From Acidobacteriota bacterium (GTDB taxonomy: Bacteria > Acidobacteriota > Terriglobia > Terriglobales > SCQP01): DNA of 64,000 bases. The DNA lies in NCBI GenBank assembly GCA_004299485.1, contig SCQP01000002.1, positions 62,001 to 126,000 of the forward strand, written 5' to 3'. Below, in pieces: positions 30,477-48,844 of the stretch. How positions within the stretch are numbered: position 1 is the stretch's first letter; every line of letters begins with the position of its first letter. A program made the position numbers and the translations under genes. The notes beneath the pieces were generated by a model, which was not told where the DNA came from, made no database searches, and worked only from the letters and a program-made list of their open reading frames with translations.

Positions 30477-30489
30477 GGGAGCTCCAAAA

Positions 30490-30521
30490 GTATTTCAGTA
30501 TTTCAGTAGGTCAGTATGTCA
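30490..30521. repeat. Octamer array A (GTATTTCA-type, 4 units)
   Basis: Four tandem 8-bp units on the plus strand: GTATTTCA, GTATTTCA, GTAGGTCA, GTATGTCA. They lie in the 53-bp gap between the NifU-related gene and the 110-aa gene, 13 bp from the latter's ATG. The first two and last three positions of each unit are fixed (GTNNNTCA) while the middle varies. Confidence 0.9.
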
Positions 30522-30529
30522 GTTAAGGC

Positions 30530-33673: not shown

Positions 33674-33722
33674 GATACTTGCCACGATTCCTGTACCTGC
33701 GTCGGGGATGTCCGCGGGATGA

Positions 33723-33754
33723 GCGGTTCAGCGTGTCAGCGGTTCAGCCGAATC
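33723..33754. repeat. Octamer array D (GCGGTTCA-type, 3 good units plus 1 degenerate)
   Basis: Plus-strand units GCGGTTCA, GCGTGTCA, GCGGTTCA, then degenerate GCCGAATC. Located between hypE (stop at 33787) and hhyS (ATG at 33673), about 50 bp upstream of the hhyS start. It fits the shared pattern G-Y-NNN-TC-R at 8-bp pitch seen in arrays A, B and C. Confidence 0.8.
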
Positions 33755-33786: not shown

Positions 33787-34875
33787 TCAGCAGATGCGGG
33801 GCAACTGTTCGTGAAAGTGGGTGTCGAGGACGCGGGTGCCACCGACGGAGGTCTGGAGCAGCACCATATCTTTGGGTGAGGCAATGATTTCGCCGATGCG
33901 GCAGGCATCCGCACCCAGGGGGTGCTGCTTGAGGGTGGCGAGGGCGCGGCTGGCGTAGTCGGACGAGACGATGGCGACGAGCTTGCCTTCGTTGGCGACG
34001 TAGAGGGGGTCGATACCGAGCAGTTCACAGGCAGAGCTGACGGATTCACGGACGGGGATGGCGGATTCGTCGAGTTGCACGCCGACGCCGGAGCGGAGGG
34101 CGATTTCGTGCAGGGAGGTAGCGACGCCGCCGCGGGTGGGGTCACGCATGCAGCGCAGCGCGGGGGGTGGGCAGGCGGCGAGGAGCGCGGCCGCGAGGGT
34201 GTGCAGGGCAGCGCTATCGCTGGCGATGGTGGTTTCGAACTCGAGGTTTTCGCGCAGCGAGAGGATGGCCATGCCGTGGTCGCCGATGGTGCCGCTGAGC
34301 AGGACCACGTCTCCGGGCTGGGCGCGGTTGGCGCCGAGGGAGACGCCTTCGGGAACCCAGCCGACGCCGGTGGTGGTAATAAAGACCTGGTCGCCCTTGC
34401 CGTGATTCACTACTTTGGTATCGCCGGTGACAATGGTGACGCCGGCTTGTTCGGCGGCGGCGGCCATGGAATGCACGACGCGGGCGAGGTCGGTGCGGGC
34501 GAGGCCTTCTTCGAGGATGAAGGCGGCGGCGAGCCAGAGGGGTTTGGCCCCGCCCATGGCGAGGTCGTTGACGGTGCCGTGGACGGCGAGAGAGCCGATG
34601 TCGCCGCCGGGGAAAAAGATGGGGGTGATGACGAAGCTGTCGGTGGTGAGGGCAAGGCGGCCGGCGCCCTGACCGGTTGTCGCAGCCGGCAGCGCCAGCA
34701 CGGCCTGGTCGTCCATGCGTTCGAGGACGGGGTTGCGGAAGGCGGGTAGAAAGACGTCGTTGATGAGCTGGGCGGTGAGCTTACCGCCGGCGCCGTGGCC
34801 AAGGACGATGCGCTCGTGCTCGCGCAAGGGCAGGGGGCAGGAGGCGTTCACGAGGCTAGGTTGGGGGGTGTCCAT
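33787..34875 (-). CDS. hypE: Carbamoyl-dehydratase HypE
   Basis: A 362-residue PurM-like enzyme that dehydrates the carbamoyl group on its own C-terminal cysteine to thiocyanate, the source of the CN ligands. The essential C-terminus PRIC is present. Other markers are LGHGAGGKLTAQLINDVFLP, MDDQAVL, LALTTDSFVITPIFFPGGDIGSLAVHGTVNDLAMGGAKP and MRDPTRGGVATSLHEIA. ATG 34875 (MDTPQPSLVN) is chosen; only one base separates it from octamer array C, so no normal ribosome-binding site is present. The hypF-hypC-hypD-SIS part of the operon lies 2.6 kb upstream, beyond the damaged toxin-antitoxin island. Confidence 0.95.
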   Translation of the reverse strand: MDTPQPSLVNASCPLPLREHERIVLGHGAGGKLTAQLINDVFLPAFRNPVLERMDDQAVLALPAATTGQGAGRLALTTDSFVITPIFFPGGDIGSLAVHGTVNDLAMGGAKPLWLAAAFILEEGLARTDLARVVHSMAAAAEQAGVTIVTGDTKVVNHGKGDQVFITTTGVGWVPEGVSLGANRAQPGDVVLLSGTIGDHGMAILSLRENLEFETTIASDSAALHTLAAALLAACPPPALRCMRDPTRGGVATSLHEIALRSGVGVQLDESAIPVRESVSSACELLGIDPLYVANEGKLVAIVSSDYASRALATLKQHPLGADACRIGEIIASPKDMVLLQTSVGGTRVLDTHFHEQLPRIC

Positions 34876-34876
34876 A

Positions 34877-34908
34877 GGTCTATCGGTCGCTCGGTCTGTC
34901 GGTCTATC
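34877..34908. repeat. Octamer array C (GGTCTATC-type, 4 units)
   Basis: Four plus-strand 8-bp units: GGTCTATC, GGTCGCTC, GGTCTGTC, GGTCTATC. Shifted by one base they read GTCTATCG, GTCGCTCG, GTCTGTCG, GTCTATCA and fit G-Y-NNN-TC-R, the pattern of arrays A, B and D. The array ends one base from the hypE ATG, occupying the place of a Shine-Dalgarno sequence. Confidence 0.88.
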
Positions 34909-35070
34909 AGAGCGGGAGAGTAGGGGGCATGGGTCGGCTGAGGCATCGGCCTTGCGCACCTACGGTGTGCGGCGGGCTGCCCGGGATGGGAACGCACGGC
35001 TCCTGTCAGGAACTTACGAGCATTCGGACGCGGAAAGGGGGAAGAAGGTTGGCTGGCCGTGGCATTCTGC
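34909..35070. other. Non-coding stretch upstream of hypE
   Basis: About 160 bp with no convincing gene on either strand. It contains only a weak GCATTC/GAATGC inverted repeat at its right end, near the VapC remnant. If the toxin-antitoxin island separates the operon halves transcriptionally, a new promoter for hypE-hhyS-hhyL should lie here, but I cannot point to clear -35/-10 boxes. Confidence 0.5.
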
Positions 35071-39227: not shown

Positions 39228-39232
39228 GAGAA

Positions 39233-39264
39233 GTATTTCAGTATTTCAGTTCGTCAGTATTTCA
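39233..39264. repeat. Octamer array B (GTATTTCA-type, 4 units)
   Basis: Plus-strand units GTATTTCA, GTATTTCA, GTTCGTCA, GTATTTCA. On the coding strand it spans the last codons and TGA stop of hypC (the final residues LKY come from the array) and ends 5 bp before the hypD ATG. Units are identical to those of array A 8.7 kb away. Confidence 0.9.
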
Positions 39265-39562
39265 GTTTTGTCGAACTCGCCGGTGGGGCTGGGCGGGGCG
39301 CGGGGGATTCGGTTACAACCGGGGCGTCGAGTTCGCCGAGTTGGTTCAGCTCTTCCAAGGCGGAGTAGGTGCGGGCGGCTTCGGCTTCGTTGACGCAGCT
39401 TATGGCGAAACCGACGTGGACGAGGACGTAGTCGCCCACGTGCGCTTCCGGTGTGTAGGTAAGGCAGGCTTCGCGCGTGATGGCGCCGAACTGGACGTTA
39501 GCCATGGGGAGGCCGTGGAGCTCGTAGGCGGTGAGGATTTTGCCGGGGATGGCTAGGCACAT
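39254..39562 (-). CDS. hypC: Hydrogenase maturation chaperone HypC
   Basis: A 102-residue HypC/HupF chaperone. The N-terminus MCLAIPGKI with essential Cys2 is intact, followed by the OB-fold core (ANVQFGAITREACLTYTP, VGDYVLVHVGFAISCVNEAEA). It carries Fe(CN)2CO between HypD and the large subunit. The tail (DAPVVTESPAPRPAPPASSTKLKY) is longer and more Pro-rich than usual, and its last codons and stop belong to octamer array B. Its start overlaps the hypF stop by 10 bp. Confidence 0.95.
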   Translation of the reverse strand: MCLAIPGKILTAYELHGLPMANVQFGAITREACLTYTPEAHVGDYVLVHVGFAISCVNEAEAARTYSALEELNQLGELDAPVVTESPAPRPAPPASSTKLKY

Positions 39563-41805
39563 GGGTGGGACTCGATTGCCTGCGCGATGGCGGCTTGGCC
39601 GAGAGAGAGGCCGCCGTCGTTCATGGGCACTTGCTGAGGGACGAAGACGTGGAAGCCGGAAGACTCAAGGGACTGGAGGGTTGCGGACAACAGGATTTGG
39701 TTTTGAAACACGCCGCCTCCGAGGCATACGCGGTCGCCGGCGCCAGCATCGCGCAGGGTGCGACACGTTGCCGTGATGGCAGCGGCGAGGGTGGCGTGGA
39801 GGCGTGCGGCAAGGAGTTCGATGCGCTCACCGCGGGTGCGGGCCGCTGCCAAAGAGGTGAATAAAGAGGCCAGGGGCCAGGGGACAGGGGCCAGGGGGCA
39901 CGCGAGGGCCGCGGTTTCGACACGCATCGCGGGGTCGGCTTCGAAGGTCACTTCTTCGGTTTCAGGGAAGAGGCCGAGAATAGCGGCGGCGGCGTCGAAG
40001 AGGCGGCCAGCAGAGGTGCAGGGAACGCAGAGCGAGGGGCGGTGGAGGAGGGTCCAGACCATTTCGAGGCGCTTGGGGGCGAGATTGGGCCAGAGCTGGC
40101 GGGCGATGGGGAGGGCGGCGTCACCGAGCTCGCGATAGAGGTAGGCGAGACCGAGGCGCCAGGGCTGGCGGATGGCGGCTTCGCCGCCGGGGAGGAGAAT
40201 TTCGGGCAGGTGGGCGAGGCGGCGGAAAACAGAGCGGGAGGCGAGGAGGAACTCTCCGCCCCAGATGGCGCCGTCGCTGCCATAGCCGGTGCCATCCCAG
40301 GCGACGCCGAGGACGTCGCCCTCGAGTTGATATTCGGCCATGCAGGCGGCGATGTGGGCGTGGTGGTGCTGCACCGCAATGATGCGCCCGATGCCGAGTT
40401 GGGGGGCGAGTGTGCGCACCCATTGATTAAGCAGATAGCCGGGATGGGCATCGAGTGCGAGCACTTTGGGGCGAACGCTAAGTAGGGTCAAGTAATGCTT
40501 TAGGGTTTGTTCGTAAAAAGACCAGACGGGAGGGTTCGCCATGTCGCCGGTGTGAGGGGAAAGAAACGCCTGGGAGCCGCGGGTGAGGCAGAAGGTGTTC
40601 TTGAGTTCGGCGCCGGCTGCGAGGATGGCAAGGGCCGCGGGACAGGGGACCGGGGTCAGAGCAAGCGGTTGAGGGACGTAGCCGCGGGCGCGGCGCAGCA
40701 GGTGCAGGCGGCCGGCGGCGACGAAGGCCACAGAATCGTCGGCGCGGGCGTGGATGGGGCGAGAGTGGTCGAGGAAGCAGTCGGCGATGCCGGTGAGGTT
40801 GGCGTGGGCTTCGGATGCCGAGGCGGCGAGGGGTTCGGAGCCACGATTGCCACTCGTCATCAGCAAGAAGGGCTTGCCATAGGCGGCGAGCAAGAGGTCG
40901 TGCAAGGGGCTACTGGGGAGCATGATGCCGAGGCGGAGTTGGCCGGGAGCGGCGGAGGGGCAGATTTTGGGAGAAGCGGGATCGCGGCGGCGGAGGAGGA
41001 CAATCGGGCGGGCGGAGCTTTCCAGCGCCGTGCGCTCGATGTCGCTGAGATGGCAGATTTGTGCGACCGCGGCGAGGTCGGCGGCAAGGAGAGCGAAGGG
41101 CTTGCGGGGACGGTTCTTGGCGGCACGGAGGCGGGCGACGGTGCTTTCGTTGGCGGGGTCACAGGCGAGCTGAAAGCCGCCGACGTTCTTGATGGCGACG
41201 ATGTTGCCGGCACGGAGGCGGGCGGCGGTGGCATCGAGCGAGCAGGAAAGCTGGGGGCCGCAGGCGGGGCAGGCGTTGGGTTGAGCATGAAAGCGGCGGT
41301 CGAGGGGCGAGTCGTATTCCTGCTGACACTGTGCGCACATAGGGAAGGCGGCCATGGTGGTGAGGGGGCGGTCGTAAGGAACGCCGCGGGTGATGGTGTA
41401 GCGCGGGCCGCAGTGGGTGCAGTTGGTGAAGGCATAGCCGTGGCGGCGGTTGTGCGCATCGAGGTAATCCTCGTGGCAGTGGGGGCAGGGGGCGGTGTCA
41501 GGAGCGATCTGGGCGGGTACGGCGGAAAGCGAGCGGCTGGGGAGAATGTGGAAGCCGGCACCGCCATTGGCGGCGATGGTCTGGACGGAAGTGGATTCGA
41601 CGCGGGCAAGTGGTGGGGGTTGGGAGCGGAGCTGATGAAGAAAAAGTTCGAGAGCGGCTTCGGGCCCTTCGGCCTCAATCGTGACGCCGGCGGTGGAGTT
41701 CCAGACGGCGCCGTTGAGACCGCAACCGGAGGCAAGCTGATAGACAAAAGGACGGAAGCCGACCCCCTGTACCGCACCAGTAACTTCAATGCGCCGGCGT
41801 GCCAC
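39553..41805 (-). CDS. hypF: Carbamoyltransferase HypF
   Basis: A 750-residue enzyme that transfers the carbamoyl group to the HypE C-terminal Cys. Domains in order: acylphosphatase (EVTGAVQGVGFRPFVYQLA), two zinc-finger pairs (CPHCHEDYLDAHNRRHGYAFTNCTHCG and CAQC...CPAC), a YrdC-like domain and a Kae1-like domain (VQHHHAHIAACMAEYQLEGDVLGVAWDGTGYG). Two G-rich heptamer arrays lie inside the coding region (39868-39895 and 40632-40659). It is the first gene of the hyp operon, divergent from the tamA gene. Confidence 0.95.
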   Translation of the reverse strand: MARRRIEVTGAVQGVGFRPFVYQLASGCGLNGAVWNSTAGVTIEAEGPEAALELFLHQLRSQPPPLARVESTSVQTIAANGGAGFHILPSRSLSAVPAQIAPDTAPCPHCHEDYLDAHNRRHGYAFTNCTHCGPRYTITRGVPYDRPLTTMAAFPMCAQCQQEYDSPLDRRFHAQPNACPACGPQLSCSLDATAARLRAGNIVAIKNVGGFQLACDPANESTVARLRAAKNRPRKPFALLAADLAAVAQICHLSDIERTALESSARPIVLLRRRDPASPKICPSAAPGQLRLGIMLPSSPLHDLLLAAYGKPFLLMTSGNRGSEPLAASASEAHANLTGIADCFLDHSRPIHARADDSVAFVAAGRLHLLRRARGYVPQPLALTPVPCPAALAILAAGAELKNTFCLTRGSQAFLSPHTGDMANPPVWSFYEQTLKHYLTLLSVRPKVLALDAHPGYLLNQWVRTLAPQLGIGRIIAVQHHHAHIAACMAEYQLEGDVLGVAWDGTGYGSDGAIWGGEFLLASRSVFRRLAHLPEILLPGGEAAIRQPWRLGLAYLYRELGDAALPIARQLWPNLAPKRLEMVWTLLHRPSLCVPCTSAGRLFDAAAAILGLFPETEEVTFEADPAMRVETAALACPLAPVPWPLASLFTSLAAARTRGERIELLAARLHATLAAAITATCRTLRDAGAGDRVCLGGGVFQNQILLSATLQSLESSGFHVFVPQQVPMNDGGLSLGQAAIAQAIESHPCA
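39868..39895. repeat. Heptamer array inside hypF, first
   Basis: Four plus-strand 7-bp units: GGCCAGG, GGCCAGG, GGACAGG, GGCCAGG, with a partial fifth unit. It encodes, antisense, the run PLAPVPWPLA in the C-terminal part of HypF. Confidence 0.8.
40632..40659. repeat. Heptamer array inside hypF, second
   Basis: Four plus-strand 7-bp units GGGCCGC, GGGACAG, GGGACCG, GGGTCAG. It lies in the middle of hypF and encodes the segment LTPVPCPAALAIL on the coding strand. The unit family (GGGNCAG) is the same type as the other hypF array and the tamB array. Confidence 0.7.
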
Positions 41806-41873
41806 TTGTAAGGCGATGCGAAACTGCGGCTTGCCGTGAGAGCATCTATAGAAGGAATCGCGAATTGCGCTGG

Positions 41874-44800
41874 ATGGGCCTCCTCATGTTGCTGGGCACA
41901 CTGCTGCCCACTGGCTGGGCACAAACGCCCGGAACGACCCCGCTCGACCTGTTTCAGGGGCGGCCGGTGACGGCGGTGGAGCTGGCGGGGCGGCCGGGAT
42001 TGGATACGGCGCCGCTGATCGCGGCCTTGCCGCAGCAGGCGGGAGAGTTGCTGGATGAAGGCAAGATTACGGCCTCGGTAACGCTGCTACGGCAACGAAT
42101 GGGTGCCAAGGTCACGTCGGTTGTGGTCAATGTGATTCCGGAGGTGAGCGGAGTCCGGCTCCAGTTCCTGTTGCGACCGGCGGATTTCTTTGGCATCTAC
42201 CAATTTCCGGGAGCCTTGCAGTTTCCCTACACGCGGTTGTTGGAGGCGGCGCACTACGCGACGCAAACACCCTACACGGCCGATGCGGTGAGCAGCGCTG
42301 TCAGCGGACTACAAAACTATTTTCAGCAGGAGGGGTATTTTCAGGCGCGCGTCGAACCGGAGGAGCGCGTGGACGACGGACACGGGGTGGTCAATTTGAC
42401 CTTCGCTACTGCACTGGGGCCACGCGCCCGCTTTGGCGCGGTACGCTTTGATGGGGCGACCGGGGCGCAAGCGGCGGATCTACTGGCGACGCTGAGCTCG
42501 TTTTGGGCGCGGCTGCGGCGGAAATCGGTGACTTCCGGCAGGTTGTACTCACGGCAGCGGCTGCAGGTGGCGGCGGCGTATCTGCAATCGCACTTGAATG
42601 GCGAAGGCTATTTGGGCGCACAAGTGAGCCCGCGCGGGGCAACCTATCACCCCGAGAGCAATCGGGCAGACATTGCGTTTGACGTTCAGGCCGGGCCGAA
42701 AGTCGACCTCAGCATTACCGGCGCCCACCTTTGGCCGTGGACCCGCCACGGCTTGCTTCCTTTCTACAGCGAAAGCAACGTTGCGCCGGCCGCCGTGCAG
42801 GACGGGCAGCAAAATCTAGCCAGCTACTTTGCCTCCAAAGGCTACTTCAATGCGGTGGTCACCACCAAGGTGACGACCACCACGGTGGGGGGGGAAACGG
42901 AGACGCGGCAGACGCAGGCCTCGGCTGCCGATCTCACGGTGCCGCCGGCACCACCAGCGCCGGCGGCTGAACCGCTGCAATTGAAGTCGATTGCCTACCA
43001 CATCGACAAAGGGCCACGGAATGATGTTGAGGCGATCCGGTTCACGGGCAATCAGTTTTACTCGCGCGCTGACCTGTTGCCGCTGGTGCAGGTGAAGCTG
43101 GAAGGGCTGCTTTCGCATGGCGATTTCAGCGCCGAGCTGCTGCGGCAGAGCGTATCGAATCTTGAGGCGCTATACAAGGGTTCCGGGTACAGCAACGTGC
43201 AGGTCACGCCCGAGATTACGCATCCGGGCGGCAATCTGGTGGTGACGTTCAAGATCAAGGAGGGCACTCAGGATTTCGTTTCGGCTCTCAAGATTGAAGG
43301 GAATGCAGTGGCGCCGGGTGTGTTTGCGCCGCAAGGACTAATGATCGGCAACGGTACACCCTTTTCGCAGACGCTGATTTCGGAAGACAGGGCGCAAATT
43401 CTGGCGTATTACCTGTCGCATGGCTATCTCAATGCCAACTTCCGCGCTACGGCGGCACCGACGCCCGGGCATCCGCACCAGGTAGAAGTGACGTATCACA
43501 TTCAGGAAGGCCCGCAGGTGCATACCGCCGCGGTGTTGACCTATGGCCGTCAGCAAACCAATGCGCGACTGATTCGTCTATTGACGAGCGACCTGAAACC
43601 CAAGGAGCCGCTGACGGAAAACGATTTGCTTCAAGCAGCGAGCCAGCTTTACAGCCCGGGCATTTTTGACTGGGCCGATGTGGGACCGCGGCGTCCGATT
43701 GCCGACCAGACGCAGGCCGACGTACTGGTGAAGGTGCACGAGGCGGCGAGGAACTCGCTGGTGTGGGGGTTTGGATTCGATCTGACGAACCGCGGGGGCA
43801 GCATTCCGTCCGGCACGATCGCGCTGCCGGGGCTGCCGGTGGTGGGGCTGCCGTCGAGTTTCGTCACGAGCCAAGCGACGTTTTTTGGGCCGAGTGTGAA
43901 CGTGGAGTACACGCGGCTGAACGAGGGCGGCAAAGCCGGGACGCTGAGCTTTGGGGGCTTTGCGGGGCGGCTGGATCAACATGGTTCGGTTACCTGGACC
44001 GATCCGTATCTGTTCTGGACAAAATTCACCGGGAATCTGCTGATTTCCGGTGAGCACGATTCACAGAACCCGGTTTTTACGGCGCAGATTGGACAAATTG
44101 GCTACCAACTCGAGCGTCCGCTCAATCTGGATCGAACCACCAATCTGTTTCTGCGGTACAGCTACAGCCAAACGGGATTGAGTCAATTGCTGATTCCGGA
44201 CCTGGTGCCCGAGCGGGACCGGCACATCCGGCTGTCGACGCTTTCGGCGACGTTTCTGCGGGACACGCGTGACAATCCTCTGGATGCACACAAAGGGATG
44301 TTGCAGAGCTACGAGGTGGATCTCAATACGACGGCGCTGGGATCGAATGTAGATTTTGCGAAGGTGCTGACGCAGACGGCATATTACAAGACCCTCCATC
44401 TGCTCGGGCAGCCGAGCACGGTCTGGGCCAACAGTTTGCGTCTGGGACTGGAGCGAGCCTTTGCCGGCAGCTTCATTCCGCTCAGTCAGGCGTTTTTCAG
44501 CGGCGGCGGCAGTACGCTGCGGGGCTTTCCGCTGGATGGCGCGGGGCCGCAGAAGACGATCCCGGCTTGCGGCAATCCCAACGTGCCATCGACATGCTCA
44601 CTGATTCAGGTGCCGGTGGGCGGCAGCGCGCTGCTGATCTTCAATTCCGAGTTGCGCATTCCGACGCCGGAGGTCTGGAAGAATCTGGGCATTGCCTTGT
44701 TCTACGATGGCGGCAATGTATTCAACCACGTTGGCCTGAATACGATCGGGGCATCCTATACCAACACGATCGGTTTTGGGTTGCGCTATCAGACGGCGGT

Positions 44801-44894
44801 GGGACCGATTCGGATTGATTTCGGCCACAACCTAAATGCCGTGCCGGGTATATCGGCGACGCAAATTTTCATTACTTTGGGGCAGGCGTTTTGA
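41874..44894 (+). CDS. Omp85-family outer membrane assembly protein (TamA/BamA-like)
   Basis: About 1006 residues. A signal peptide (GLLMLLGTLLPTGWAQ) is followed by several POTRA-like repeats (for example FTGNQFYSRADLLPLVQVKLEG and LKIEGNAVAPGVFAPQGL), then a C-terminal beta-barrel with VWGFGFDLTNRGG, FLRDTRDNPLDAHKGMLQSYEV, FFSGGGSTLRGFPLDGAGP and the last strand GFGLRYQTAVGPIRIDFGHNLN. Six or more POTRA-like modules make it longer than TamA. Coupling to tamB supports a TamA-like role. ATG 41874 is used because the signal peptide starts there. Confidence 0.88.
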   Translation: MGLLMLLGTLLPTGWAQTPGTTPLDLFQGRPVTAVELAGRPGLDTAPLIAALPQQAGELLDEGKITASVTLLRQRMGAKVTSVVVNVIPEVSGVRLQFLLRPADFFGIYQFPGALQFPYTRLLEAAHYATQTPYTADAVSSAVSGLQNYFQQEGYFQARVEPEERVDDGHGVVNLTFATALGPRARFGAVRFDGATGAQAADLLATLSSFWARLRRKSVTSGRLYSRQRLQVAAAYLQSHLNGEGYLGAQVSPRGATYHPESNRADIAFDVQAGPKVDLSITGAHLWPWTRHGLLPFYSESNVAPAAVQDGQQNLASYFASKGYFNAVVTTKVTTTTVGGETETRQTQASAADLTVPPAPPAPAAEPLQLKSIAYHIDKGPRNDVEAIRFTGNQFYSRADLLPLVQVKLEGLLSHGDFSAELLRQSVSNLEALYKGSGYSNVQVTPEITHPGGNLVVTFKIKEGTQDFVSALKIEGNAVAPGVFAPQGLMIGNGTPFSQTLISEDRAQILAYYLSHGYLNANFRATAAPTPGHPHQVEVTYHIQEGPQVHTAAVLTYGRQQTNARLIRLLTSDLKPKEPLTENDLLQAASQLYSPGIFDWADVGPRRPIADQTQADVLVKVHEAARNSLVWGFGFDLTNRGGSIPSGTIALPGLPVVGLPSSFVTSQATFFGPSVNVEYTRLNEGGKAGTLSFGGFAGRLDQHGSVTWTDPYLFWTKFTGNLLISGEHDSQNPVFTAQIGQIGYQLERPLNLDRTTNLFLRYSYSQTGLSQLLIPDLVPERDRHIRLSTLSATFLRDTRDNPLDAHKGMLQSYEVDLNTTALGSNVDFAKVLTQTAYYKTLHLLGQPSTVWANSLRLGLERAFAGSFIPLSQAFFSGGGSTLRGFPLDGAGPQKTIPACGNPNVPSTCSLIQVPVGGSALLIFNSELRIPTPEVWKNLGIALFYDGGNVFNHVGLNTIGASYTNTIGFGLRYQTAVGPIRIDFGHNLNAVPGISATQIFITLGQAF

Positions 44895-47800
44895 GTAAGG
44901 CGAGTCATCTCTGGCGGCGGATTGGGATTTTCGCCGCGATTGTGGTGGGGCTGGCCATTCTGGCCGTGTGGCTGGTGCTGCGCAGCTCGGGGTTTCAGCG
45001 GTACGTGGTGCAGAAGGTGGAGGGGAGCGCCAGCCAGGCGTTGGGAACGCCTGTGCATGTGGACCAGTTCCGGTTGCAGGTGCATTCGTTTACGCCCAGC
45101 GTGGATTTTTACGGCCTTGTGGTCGAGGGAAAGCCCGTTGCGGGCGTAGGTTCGCAGCAGCCGCTGGTGTTGATTCCACATTTGCACGTTGCGGTGAAGG
45201 TGACCTCAATCCTTCACTGGACGTTCCAGATCGAAGATGTCGAGCTGGACCGGCCGGTGGTGCATGTATATGTGAACGCGCAGGGGGACAGCAACCTGCC
45301 TCCGGGGGGAGGGGCCAGGGGGCAGAGGTCAGAGTCGGATGTGTTTGCGTTGGGGATTGGGCGGGCGGAGATGCGCGACGGCCAGGTTTATGTCAATGAC
45401 CGGGAGCAGAAGATCGATGCGGAGGTGAGGGGATTGGAGCTGGCGCTCGGCTACGTACCGAAGACGCAGAGCTATACGGGCAAGGTGAGCTATACGGCTG
45501 GGAGTGTGCAGGTTGCCGGGATGCCGACGATCACGAGCGGCATGGCGATGCAGTTCACGGCTTCACGCAACGGGGTGCAAATACCCTCGCTCACGCTGAC
45601 GGCGGACGGCGTGAAGGTGAGCGCGCAGGCGACGCTGACCGGCTACGCGGAACCACGGCTTGCCGCAGCGTATCGGGTGCAGGCGGATCTTGGCCGGCTG
45701 CGGAAGGCTCTGCGCGAGCCGGCGCTGCCCGCGGGTCAGGCGGAGATGGTTGGGCAGGCGAAGTACGCCAATAACGAGTTCAGCACCGAGGGTCGGTTTT
45801 CCAGCGCAGCCATGGAGCTGAGGCTGGCCGGGTTGGCGGCGCCGGTGCGCCATTTGAGCGGCGCGTACCAGTTTGCTCATGGAAAGCTGCAGGTCAGCCA
45901 GATGCGCGCGGAGGTGATGGGCGGGCGATTGCAAGCTGGAGCTTCGGTAGAGAATTTCGCGGCGCCGCGGCTACAGGCGAGCGCCCAACTGCAGGACGCG
46001 CAGCTTGGCCGGATGGCGCGCCTGGCGCCGAACAGCCAGGCGACGCTGCAGGCGCTGGGCCTCACGGGAAAGGTGGGGGTCAAAGTCGAGGCCCGGGGCG
46101 CAGTCGCAAAGTTGCATATTGCGGCGCAGACCACGATGACCGCGATGTTCGGACCGACGAGCGTGGAGGGAAACGCGCAGGTAGCTTACGCGAATGACCG
46201 GCTGACGATTCAGAGCGGCCGGCTGCGTACGCCCCACGCCGAGGTCCGGGTGACGGGCGGATTGAGCACACGCGCGTCCGGCGCAGCGCAGTTGGAGGTG
46301 CAAGCGCAGGCCAGCGATTTTGCGGAAGTGGAATCCCTGGCGGGCCGTGCGGCGGGAGCGCTCGGTAAGCCTTTGCCGACGCTGGGGTTGCAGGGCAGCG
46401 GATCGCTCCACGCCCAGGTGGTGGGTACGCTGGCTGCACCCGTGATTGACGGACAATTCCGGGCAGTAAGACTGGGGCTGCGGGGAACACATTGGAATTC
46501 GCTGAAGGGATCGTTTGCCGCGAGTGGGGCGGAGGTGGCGTTGCGCGATGTTGAATTGCGAGCGCCCAAGGGCGCTATCAAGCTGAGCGGCAGCCTGGCG
46601 CTGGAGCACTGGAAGGCGACAGCGGCGAGTGTGATGACGGCCGCGCTCACCGTCAACTCGTTGCCGGTGAGTCAGGTAGCGGGGGCCGTGCCTGGTAAGT
46701 TGCCGCTGGAGGGCATTGTCGATGCGCAGGCAGCGGTAAACGGGACGCTGGATTCACCCGTGGGGCAGGGAACCGCGACGGTACGTTCGGCGCGGCTGGT
46801 GGTGAACGGCAAACATGCAGGGGTTGAATCGGCGCGGTTGAACTTCCAGGCGGCGGGCGGAACGATCACCGCCCAGCTCGCGGCGCAACTGGAGGCCGGA
46901 GAGATCAAGGCCAGCGGTACCTGGAAGCCGGCGTCGGGGGACTACAGCGCGCAGCTTTCGGCGCCGGGGCTCGAGTTGGCGAAAATTCCGCCGCTGGCGG
47001 CGACGCATTTGGGTATTCATGGCTTGCTGGCGTTGGAGGGCCAGGGGCAGGGAAAGATAACCGCGCCGGTTTTTGATTTGAAGCTGCGCGCGAAGGCACT
47101 TGTGACCGATGGTCAGACGGTGCAAGATCTCAGCGCGGACCTGGCGTTGTTGGGACAACAGTTGCGTGCTACGTTGACGGCGACCACGTTGCAGACGACG
47201 CTGCACGCGCAGGCAACGATCCGACTGGAAGGCAACTGGCCGGCCACGGCATCGCTCGATGCACCGGCGATTCCGCTGGCGCCGGTGCTGGCGGCGTTTG
47301 CGCCGCAGGTGGGGTCAGCGATTGTGGGGCAAACCGCGGTGCAGCTTACGCTCTCCGGACCGGTGCGCGCGCCCGAGCAGCTTCAGGTCGACGTCACCGT
47401 GCCCAAGCTGGAAATGCGCTATGAGAAAGCGCTGGAGCTGCATGCGGCGGCGCCGATGGAGGCGCATTTGGCGCACGGGGTGGTGCAGCTTGCGCCGGCG
47501 CATTTCAGCGGCTCGGGGACGGAGTTGCAGGTGCAGGGGACGGTGCCCATTCCGGCGTTGGGCGCGAGTGCGTCGGCGGCGATGAATCTGGCAGTAGCGG
47601 GCAACGTGAATCTGAAGCTGGTGCAGGCCTTTGTGCCGGACCTGGTGGCCGGCGGCAACGTGAACCTGCAGCTTCATGGCGCGGGCACACTGGCGCGACC
47701 GAATCTGACGGGAACCATTGCGGTGAGCGGTGTCAGCCTGAACGATCCCGGCTGGCCGGTGGCGCTACAAGGCGGCGAGGGCGCGCTGCGGTTGCACGAT

Positions 47801-48844
47801 GGGCGGCTGGATCTCACCGGTTTTAGTGCGAACGTCGGCAGCGGCCGGGTGACGGTGGGCGGCGGCATGGCACTGTTGCCGAAGATGCAGTTCAACTTTG
47901 CGGTAGCGGCCGAGCAGGTGAGTGTGCGTTACCCGCCCGGGCTGCGGGAGGTCATCGGGGCGAATGTGAACGTCACCGGTTCGCCAGCGGCGGCACTGGT
48001 CGCGGGCCGGGTACGCGTCGAGAGCGTCTCGCCCGCACCCGGCTTTGATTTCGCCACCTTGACCAGCCAACTGGCGCAGCAGACGGTGGCCGTCGCCACG
48101 CCGGGGGATTTTCTCACCAATTTGCGGCTGGAGCTGACGGTGAGCACGCCCAACGAGATCAACGTGGTATCGCGCGACTTCAGTATTCATGCCAACGCCA
48201 ATGTGAATGTGCGCGGAACGGGACGGGAGCCGGTGGTGCTGGGGCGGTTGGATTTGACCAGCGGCGATCTGATCTTCCGCGGCAACCGCTATGTGATCCA
48301 GGCCGGCACGCTCGATTTCGTGAACCCCATCCGGACGGTGCCGAGCGTCAACATCACCGCGGACACGACGATTCAGCAATACGATTTGCACCTGCACTTT
48401 CAGGGACCGATGGATAACATGCGCACCAGCTACACGTCCGATCCGGCCCTGCCGCCCGCGGATATCATTAGCCTGCTGGCGTTCGGCACGACTACGGAAG
48501 CTTCGGGTGCGAATCCGCTGCCGGGCAATTTAGGCGCGGAGAATCTGGTCGCCAGCGCCGTGACAAGCCAGATCACCGACCGCGTGGAGAAGATCGCCGG
48601 GATCTCGCATCTGTCGGTAGATCCGGTGCTGGGCGGAGGACAACAGAACGCCAGCGCGCGCATCACGCTGCAGCAGCGAGTGACGGCCAATCTTTACGTC
48701 ACCATCTCGACCGACGTCACCGGCACGCAGCGCAACGTGATTGAAGTGCAGTACCGGCTGTCGCCACGGGTTTCGGTCAGCGGCGTGCGGAAGCAGAACG
48801 GCGGGTTTGGGGCGAATTTGCAGTTCAAGAAGACGTGGCACTGA
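44891..48844 (+). CDS. tamB: TamB-like inner-membrane to outer-membrane bridging protein
   Basis: A 1317-residue AsmA/TamB-family protein. One N-terminal membrane helix (RIGIFAAIVVGLAILAVWLVLRS) anchors it; the rest is a long beta-taco with repeated short strands; the C-terminal TamB domain carries FDFATLTSQLAQ, LDLTSGDLIFRGNRYVIQAGTLDFVNPIRTVPSVNITADTTIQQYDLHL and DIISLLAFGTTTEA. It starts at TTG overlapping the tamA stop (TTGA), so the pair is coupled. Proteins of this type move phospholipid or help insert outer-membrane proteins. Confidence 0.93.
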   Translation: MSKASHLWRRIGIFAAIVVGLAILAVWLVLRSSGFQRYVVQKVEGSASQALGTPVHVDQFRLQVHSFTPSVDFYGLVVEGKPVAGVGSQQPLVLIPHLHVAVKVTSILHWTFQIEDVELDRPVVHVYVNAQGDSNLPPGGGARGQRSESDVFALGIGRAEMRDGQVYVNDREQKIDAEVRGLELALGYVPKTQSYTGKVSYTAGSVQVAGMPTITSGMAMQFTASRNGVQIPSLTLTADGVKVSAQATLTGYAEPRLAAAYRVQADLGRLRKALREPALPAGQAEMVGQAKYANNEFSTEGRFSSAAMELRLAGLAAPVRHLSGAYQFAHGKLQVSQMRAEVMGGRLQAGASVENFAAPRLQASAQLQDAQLGRMARLAPNSQATLQALGLTGKVGVKVEARGAVAKLHIAAQTTMTAMFGPTSVEGNAQVAYANDRLTIQSGRLRTPHAEVRVTGGLSTRASGAAQLEVQAQASDFAEVESLAGRAAGALGKPLPTLGLQGSGSLHAQVVGTLAAPVIDGQFRAVRLGLRGTHWNSLKGSFAASGAEVALRDVELRAPKGAIKLSGSLALEHWKATAASVMTAALTVNSLPVSQVAGAVPGKLPLEGIVDAQAAVNGTLDSPVGQGTATVRSARLVVNGKHAGVESARLNFQAAGGTITAQLAAQLEAGEIKASGTWKPASGDYSAQLSAPGLELAKIPPLAATHLGIHGLLALEGQGQGKITAPVFDLKLRAKALVTDGQTVQDLSADLALLGQQLRATLTATTLQTTLHAQATIRLEGNWPATASLDAPAIPLAPVLAAFAPQVGSAIVGQTAVQLTLSGPVRAPEQLQVDVTVPKLEMRYEKALELHAAAPMEAHLAHGVVQLAPAHFSGSGTELQVQGTVPIPALGASASAAMNLAVAGNVNLKLVQAFVPDLVAGGNVNLQLHGAGTLARPNLTGTIAVSGVSLNDPGWPVALQGGEGALRLHDGRLDLTGFSANVGSGRVTVGGGMALLPKMQFNFAVAAEQVSVRYPPGLREVIGANVNVTGSPAAALVAGRVRVESVSPAPGFDFATLTSQLAQQTVAVATPGDFLTNLRLELTVSTPNEINVVSRDFSIHANANVNVRGTGREPVVLGRLDLTSGDLIFRGNRYVIQAGTLDFVNPIRTVPSVNITADTTIQQYDLHLHFQGPMDNMRTSYTSDPALPPADIISLLAFGTTTEASGANPLPGNLGAENLVASAVTSQITDRVEKIAGISHLSVDPVLGGGQQNASARITLQQRVTANLYVTISTDVTGTQRNVIEVQYRLSPRVSVSGVRKQNGGFGANLQFKKTWH
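45304..45338. repeat. Heptamer array inside tamB
   Basis: Five 7-bp units: GGGGGGA, GGGGCCA, GGGGGCA, GAGGTCA, GAGTCGG. It codes for PPGGGARGQRSESD between the first helical stretch and the first beta strands of TamB, a plausible linker where extra residues would be tolerated. Confidence 0.65.

Follow-up and report, generated by a model that had tools for sequence, protein, structure and literature searches.

The three G-rich heptamer arrays that lie within hypF and a tamB-family gene are probably in-gene copies of a dispersed module, about 28-35 bp long and made of four to five GGGNCAG heptads, which is tolerated by its host genes and does not act as a translational switch. They were found in a window of 64,000 nucleotides (G000:C2:62001-126000), where G000, the source genome, comprises 3.30 Mb in 22 contigs.

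The arrays of the window and their genome-wide family

The earlier note had reported three GGGNCAG arrays in coding sequence, and this was borne out, with arrays 1 and 3 clear and array 2 weaker (Table 1). Array 1 reads AGGCCAG, GGGCCAG, GGGACAG, GGGCCAG, GGGGCAC, and Tandem Repeats Finder places it at 39868-39897 with a period of 7 and 4.3 copies. Array 3 reads GGGGGAG, GGGCCAG, GGGGCAG, AGGTCAG and decays beyond. Array 2, as first given (40632-40659), is imperfect, its opening unit GGGCCGC carrying two mismatches, and Tandem Repeats Finder at a score of 40 did not report the stretch 40639-40659. When the window was scored for a four-unit GGGNCAG pattern, the top scores fell on the sites of these three arrays; the reversed window used as control for this scoring was contaminated by the arrays themselves.

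Table 1. Heptad and octad arrays in the window and the genes that host the GGGNCAG arrays.
Feature	Position	Strand	Description
GGGNCAG array 1	39867..39901	+	5 units with no more than 1 mismatch each; lies in hypF, G-rich strand antisense
GGGNCAG array 2, degenerate	40639..40659	+	3 units, 17/18 specified bases; inside hypF, G-rich strand antisense
GGGNCAG array 3	45305..45332	+	4 units; inside tamB-like gene, G-rich strand sense
hypF	39553..41805	-	750 aa, intact; five Pfam matches
tamB-family gene	44891..48844	+	1317 aa, intact; Pfam TamB
Period-8 TCAG-N4 array	30489..30523	+	intergenic; same wider family
Period-8 TCAG-N4 array, TCAGCGTG type	33722..33748	+	intergenic
Period-8 TCAG-N4 array	39232..39266	+	between hypD and hypC, overlaps hypC 3' end

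The family is genome-wide, and it is absent or nearly absent from the sampled same-genus genomes. Two exact GGGNCAG units in tandem match 71 times in the source genome and the reversed pattern only 3 times, so the claim that such heptad arrays exceed chance holds. The matches group into 43 arrays, which we collected with their flanks as the full set for this genome; since membership calls for two adjacent exact units, the set excludes more degenerate arrays, array 2 among them. Unit counts peak at four, with 3, 9, 19, 9, 1 and 2 arrays of two, three, four, five, six and seven units, respectively. The spacing is exactly seven, as GGGN4 repeated four times gives 166 matches, in sharp contrast to a single match for GGGN5 repeated four times (every eight bases). 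The same-genus genomes G001 to G004 hold 2, 0, 1 and 0 two-unit matches. An effect of chance or codon usage in a G+C-rich genome, with which the roughly 65% G+C of the sampled loci would agree, is thus refuted by the reversed-pattern, period and same-genus controls and retains a negligible probability.

Among the 60 genomes searched, the source genome included, only G020, from another family of the same order, has more than two two-unit matches besides it (14). Three exact units occur in 19 of 396 genomes of a phylum sample, with 28 matches in the source genome, 24 in G106, 13 in G118, 7 in G020 and 5 in G186. The reversed control (GACNGGG) gives 106 matches in G118, above its GGGNCAG count, which points to abundant GGGGACN heptads like those of Nostoc. 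G106 holds 1235 matches of a four-tract AGGGNNN pattern; homogeneous arrays of AGGGTTC or AGGGATG make up most of the matches listed and offer a counterpart of the slippage type.

For 17 arrays a neighbouring gene was matched in loci of the same-genus genome G004, and eight sites were aligned. By eye, the array is missing at seven of the eight, whereas 83% of the Xcc repeats recur in Xac with their gene context unchanged, according to Rehm et al. 2015 (PMC4692102). At the eighth site, the purB leader, GGGNCAG heptads directly follow ATTCTAACAG in the source genome (L068 9038-9065), and other, TTGCCAG-like heptads follow the same ATTCTAACAG in G004 (L186), again as judged by eye. In the genes for an amino-acid permease (L067) and an MFS protein (L057), the array immediately precedes the stop codon, altering the C terminus.

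Placement at gene edges and within host proteins

The arrays are concentrated at gene edges, a placement that constrains any mechanism. We called genes with a home-made codon-usage caller (372 genes, 90% coding in the sampled loci) and took 1000 random placements in the same loci as the null. In sense orientation, 18 of the 43 arrays have a stop codon no more than 60 bp away (2.2 expected) and 13 lie near a start (2.4 expected). Where an ORF edge is at most 60 bp away, the G-rich strand points outward in 20 cases and inward in 8. Fully inside genes are 26 arrays against 37.7 expected, with 3 partly inside and 14 between genes, and more than 100 bp inside genes are 13 against 29.7 expected. At least one of these 13 is a miscall: the purB array was rejected as an in-gene case, since it ends up some 10 bp ahead of the purB start codon, the caller having taken a false upstream start.

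We compared both host proteins of the window with their counterparts in relatives, the nearest of which belong to the same genus only and have HypF proteins 47-56% identical. Array 1 encodes HypF residues ~635-647 (ACPLAPVPWPLAS), a stretch spanned by 16 relatives, all of which have 4-49 more residues there; since HypF is the shorter one at this point, native residues were replaced rather than simply added to, a point against plain insertion of a module. Array 2 corresponds to residues 385-392 of 750, in the linker that joins the Sua5/YciO/YrdC and HypF_C Pfam matches, where HypF exceeds 13 of the 17 relatives spanning it by 4 residues. Array 3 encodes GGGARGQRSE in a linker of TamB whose length varies from -5 to +3 among the 16 relatives, of 19, that span the array. 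The earlier note had named identical unit numbers together with conserved residues in all relatives as the pattern that would speak against a switch. Only half of it was seen, as the encoded residues are not conserved and the relatives' loops differ in both length and sequence.

In-gene copies elsewhere mostly lie in linkers or length-variable loops. The array is found between the motor and gamma domains of FtsK, between the zinc and HTH domains of Ada, before the C-terminal domain of an ABC-F protein, in a long insert of SMC and in a loop of TGT whose length ranges from -6 to +28 among 13 relatives. In FtsK, Ada, the ABC-F protein and HypF (array 2) it falls between Pfam matches, and in TGT and HypF (array 1) in a variable loop. 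Further arrays occur in genes for an S58 peptidase, DotU and IcmF-like proteins; several arrays, those of the S58 peptidase and an IcmF-like protein among them, lie within a Pfam match, which counts against the linker or loop reading. A selected peptide was rejected as the role of the arrays, because all three frames are in use: the 20 sense arrays called in genes (purB miscall included) fall in frames 0, 1 and 2 in 7, 5 and 8 cases.

On the reading that we prefer, each module would arise or insert whole, rather than grow by stepwise slippage, and most insertions that disrupt genes would be purged. The few in-gene modules would survive where the net length change happened to keep the frame and the insertion fell in a linker or variable loop.

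Unit independence and a wider NCAG/YYAG-core family

The earlier note had suggested that gain or loss of one heptad would shift the frame, so that phase variation of HypF is possible. As a contingency locus, the arrays would switch HypF, and TamB as well, on and off as slipped-strand mispairing alters the number of heptads. Seven is not a multiple of three and the arrays do lie within coding sequence, as such a contingency locus would have it. We therefore asked whether neighbouring units resemble each other, drawing on 36 GGGN4 arrays that each had three or more A-ended units (a few of them not GGGNCAG) and, as the null, dealing all units at random among arrays. Neighbours share the same spacer in 21 of 96 cases against 20.9 expected (p ~0.54), so the resemblance between neighbours is no greater than that between units from different arrays, and no trace of recent slippage or of homogeneous, slippage-type tandem units is found. 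In the same test, G106 gave 32 of 41 against 10.7 expected, while for G020 the count at lag 1 was 15 of 166 (13.4 expected) and lags 2 and 3 slightly exceeded expectation. Old arrays in which the N position has drifted would show the same independence.

Together with the heterogeneity and independence of the units, the shortness of the arrays (3-5 units), the mid and late position of the hypF arrays in a linker or loop and the genes hit elsewhere make phase variation of HypF very unlikely. The family also resides in smc, ftsK and tgt, where a frequent off switch is implausible, and it clusters at gene ends genome-wide. Split genes were absent from the five same-strand intergenic sites checked, where the neighbours do not look like gene halves (one of the ten proteins had no match). 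Both hypF and tamB are intact, and their arrays lie in length-tolerant loops or linkers, so the proposed switch gains no support.

GGGNCAG represents one dialect within a wider family, defined by an NCAG/YYAG core and a period of 7 or 8. When all tetramers were counted at fixed spacing in the source-genome loci, periods 7 and 8 stood out, and many arrays without GGG share TCAG, ACAG or CAGT. Their units include TCAGTTT, TCAGTCG, TGGTCAG, TCAGCCA and ACAGTTA at period 7, and TCAGTATT, TCAGCGGA and TCAGCGAA at period 8. Arrays of TCAG or ACAG number 22 at periods 7 and 8 (15 intergenic, 3 partly so, 3 in genes near an edge and 1 deep), compared with 0-2 at each of periods 5, 6, 9, 10 and 11. Six re-ordered control cores gave 0-4 each, except AC[TA]G with 17, taken to be the same arrays in another register. 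Some TCAG arrays of this genome are homogeneous (TGGTCAG, GTCATCA), so part of the wider family may be subject to slippage. The window has one more period-8 array, of GGTCNNTC type, at 34870-34915, where the minus-strand gene 33787-34875 has its upstream edge.

The spacers of relatives are TTG, TGG and CTN. Variants of the form KKGNCAG are TTGYCAG in G007, TTGCCAG in G004 and TGGYCAG in G019 and G020. In 863 kb of G004, YYAG repeated three times was found 17 times at period 7 and 0-1 times at periods 5, 8, 10 and 11; the two periods divisible by three, 6 and 9, gave 29 and 16. The GGGRYYA arrays of G020 form 17 convergent pairs and no divergent one, mostly a few bases from the flanking ORFs on both sides, regardless of ORF direction. 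An Acido-Lenti-1 RNA (RF01687) lies a few hundred bases from one such pair (G020, L138 1482-1528); together with gene content, the presence of this RNA in a relative suggests an acidobacterial host. A contig scan with HypF turned up two distant relatives only, a Desulfuromonadales MAG and a Muricauda.

Possible functions and likeness to published repeats

Any effect of the modules would be exerted at the level of nucleic acid, through a G-quadruplex or a binding site for the tetranucleotide core, and not through translation. It is possible, although unlikely, that the arrays are primarily quadruplex elements, in which four G-tracts are selected since DNA or RNA G4s act at gene ends and in-gene copies are strays, an idea also weighed for the Xanthomonas and Nostoc repeats. 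A canonical G4 motif is present in 28 of the 43 arrays, in sharp contrast to none of 860 random placements; four units is the most common size, and edge position and orientation resemble the published Xanthomonas and Nostoc pattern. Yet 15 of the 43 arrays lack the motif, and in the 126 non-seed units the C, A and G of the core are kept 114, 108 and 119 times (90, 86 and 94%), on average better than the three Gs of the tract with 98, 109 and 88 (78, 87 and 70%). This core conservation argues against the G-tracts as the sole selected part. Moreover, this genome and others of the order have arrays with TTG, CTN or T-rich spacers and no G-tracts, which in the source genome occupy the same kind of gene edges, and period 8 should serve quadruplexes equally well but is absent for GGG. 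The arrays do have G4 potential, though it is probably not the feature that all of them share.

About as plausible, and still improbable, is a modular RNA- or DNA-binding protein that would read a YCAG-like tetranucleotide every 7 or 8 nt, leaving the spacers free to drift in each lineage. The conserved core, the variable spacer, the fixed spacing and the nearby ORF edges are as this would have it, whereas the outward orientation of the G020 pairs ignores the direction of transcription and both spacings occur within one genome. More doubtful is an active, unit-based process, run by a templating RNA or a sequence-specific protein, that would deposit or maintain YYAG-N3/N4 arrays at ORF edges throughout the order, with the CAG-core heptads of cyanobacteria and Beggiatoa as products of a process of this kind. 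Each genome would then have its own spacer vocabulary (GGG in the source genome, TTG in G004 and G007, TGG and GGR in G019/G020), and all units of a genome would change together, much as telomere repeats copy their template. Highly improbable, and already disfavoured, is a REP-like element mobilized by a RAYT (Y1 transposase), or else a MITE whose core is conserved. The arrays are dispersed, short and oriented, and G020 has its convergent pairs; however, the source genome has no match to PF01797 (Y1_Tnp), present in 32 of the 41 genomes searched, which led us to reject RAYT/REP mobility. A mobile core between paired arrays was rejected as well, since the 17 inter-arm stretches of G020 are mutually dissimilar, and the flanks of the source-genome arrays share, by eye, no common sequence beyond (C)AG. 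As for known structured RNAs, the window has no Rfam match at gathering thresholds, and 16 further loci have one, away from the arrays.

The closest published counterparts are the quadruplex-forming heptamers GGGAATC of Xanthomonas and GGGGA(C/T)T of Nostoc, for which phase variation was judged unlikely by Rehm et al. 2015 (PMC4692102). Like these, the arrays described here are dispersed and G-rich, with a mode of four units (19/43 here) and a predicted G4 motif; they are enriched at ORF edges and depleted in coding sequence, and run in the same orientation, past stop codons on the sense strand and ahead of ORFs on the antisense strand. The convergent pairs of Xanthomonas and Nostoc have their counterpart in G020. 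Unlike in those genomes, the unit is GGGNCAG, and it is not the G-tract that is conserved over the spacer, as CAG is kept better; the intragenic share is also higher, 26/43 (predicted genes) compared with 7-11% in Xanthomonas and 32%, by subtraction, in Nostoc (PMC4692102). MacGregor 2015 (PMC4679880) described TAACTGA direct repeats in Beggiatoaceae, cyanobacteria and Bacteroidetes; read as its reverse complement, TCAGTTA, this unit shares the TCAG core of the present arrays. These too are dispersed heptads, of 2-6 units, with in-ORF copies mostly at protein ends. However, those repeats have a single invariant unit, placed in most cases directly ahead of start codons, and related heptamers are rarely repeated there, whereas the source genome has several spacers and octads too (PMC4679880). 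TAACTGA/TCAGTTA arrays directly upstream of starts were not the pattern found in the source genome, where the units differ and most lie at gene ends.

The likeness to dispersed cyanobacterial heptamers drawn by the earlier note was right in kind, as the Nostoc heptads and the TAACTGA repeats share layout or core with the present arrays. The cyanobacterial STRR heptamers of Mazel and colleagues (1990), reportedly CCCCAGT, TTGGTCA and CAACAGT, would likewise be genus-specific, dispersed tandem arrays. In the paper library searched, entries on Acidobacteria together with heptamers, tandem or direct repeats or quadruplexes gave no description of these arrays. What we describe is thus a known kind of dispersed heptad array in a new variant, real and genome-wide, and a HypF switch is not supported on present evidence. 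Dispersed heptad arrays have been reported in a few bacteria, to which the source genome adds a lineage-specific expansion with relatives that use other units. Published ideas can be separated by three tests: unit independence (against recent slippage), core conservation (against G-tracts only) and ORF-edge placement.

In a relative's assembly, one contig of 13,080 bases (sampled as L260, G016:C7:1-6000) opens with CCCCAAAA repeated about 15 times; over its first 6 kb, G+C is 38-40% and bacterial ORFs are scarce. We take CCCCAAAA to be a telomere repeat and the contig, presumably, to be a ciliate macronuclear chromosome contaminating this bacterial assembly.
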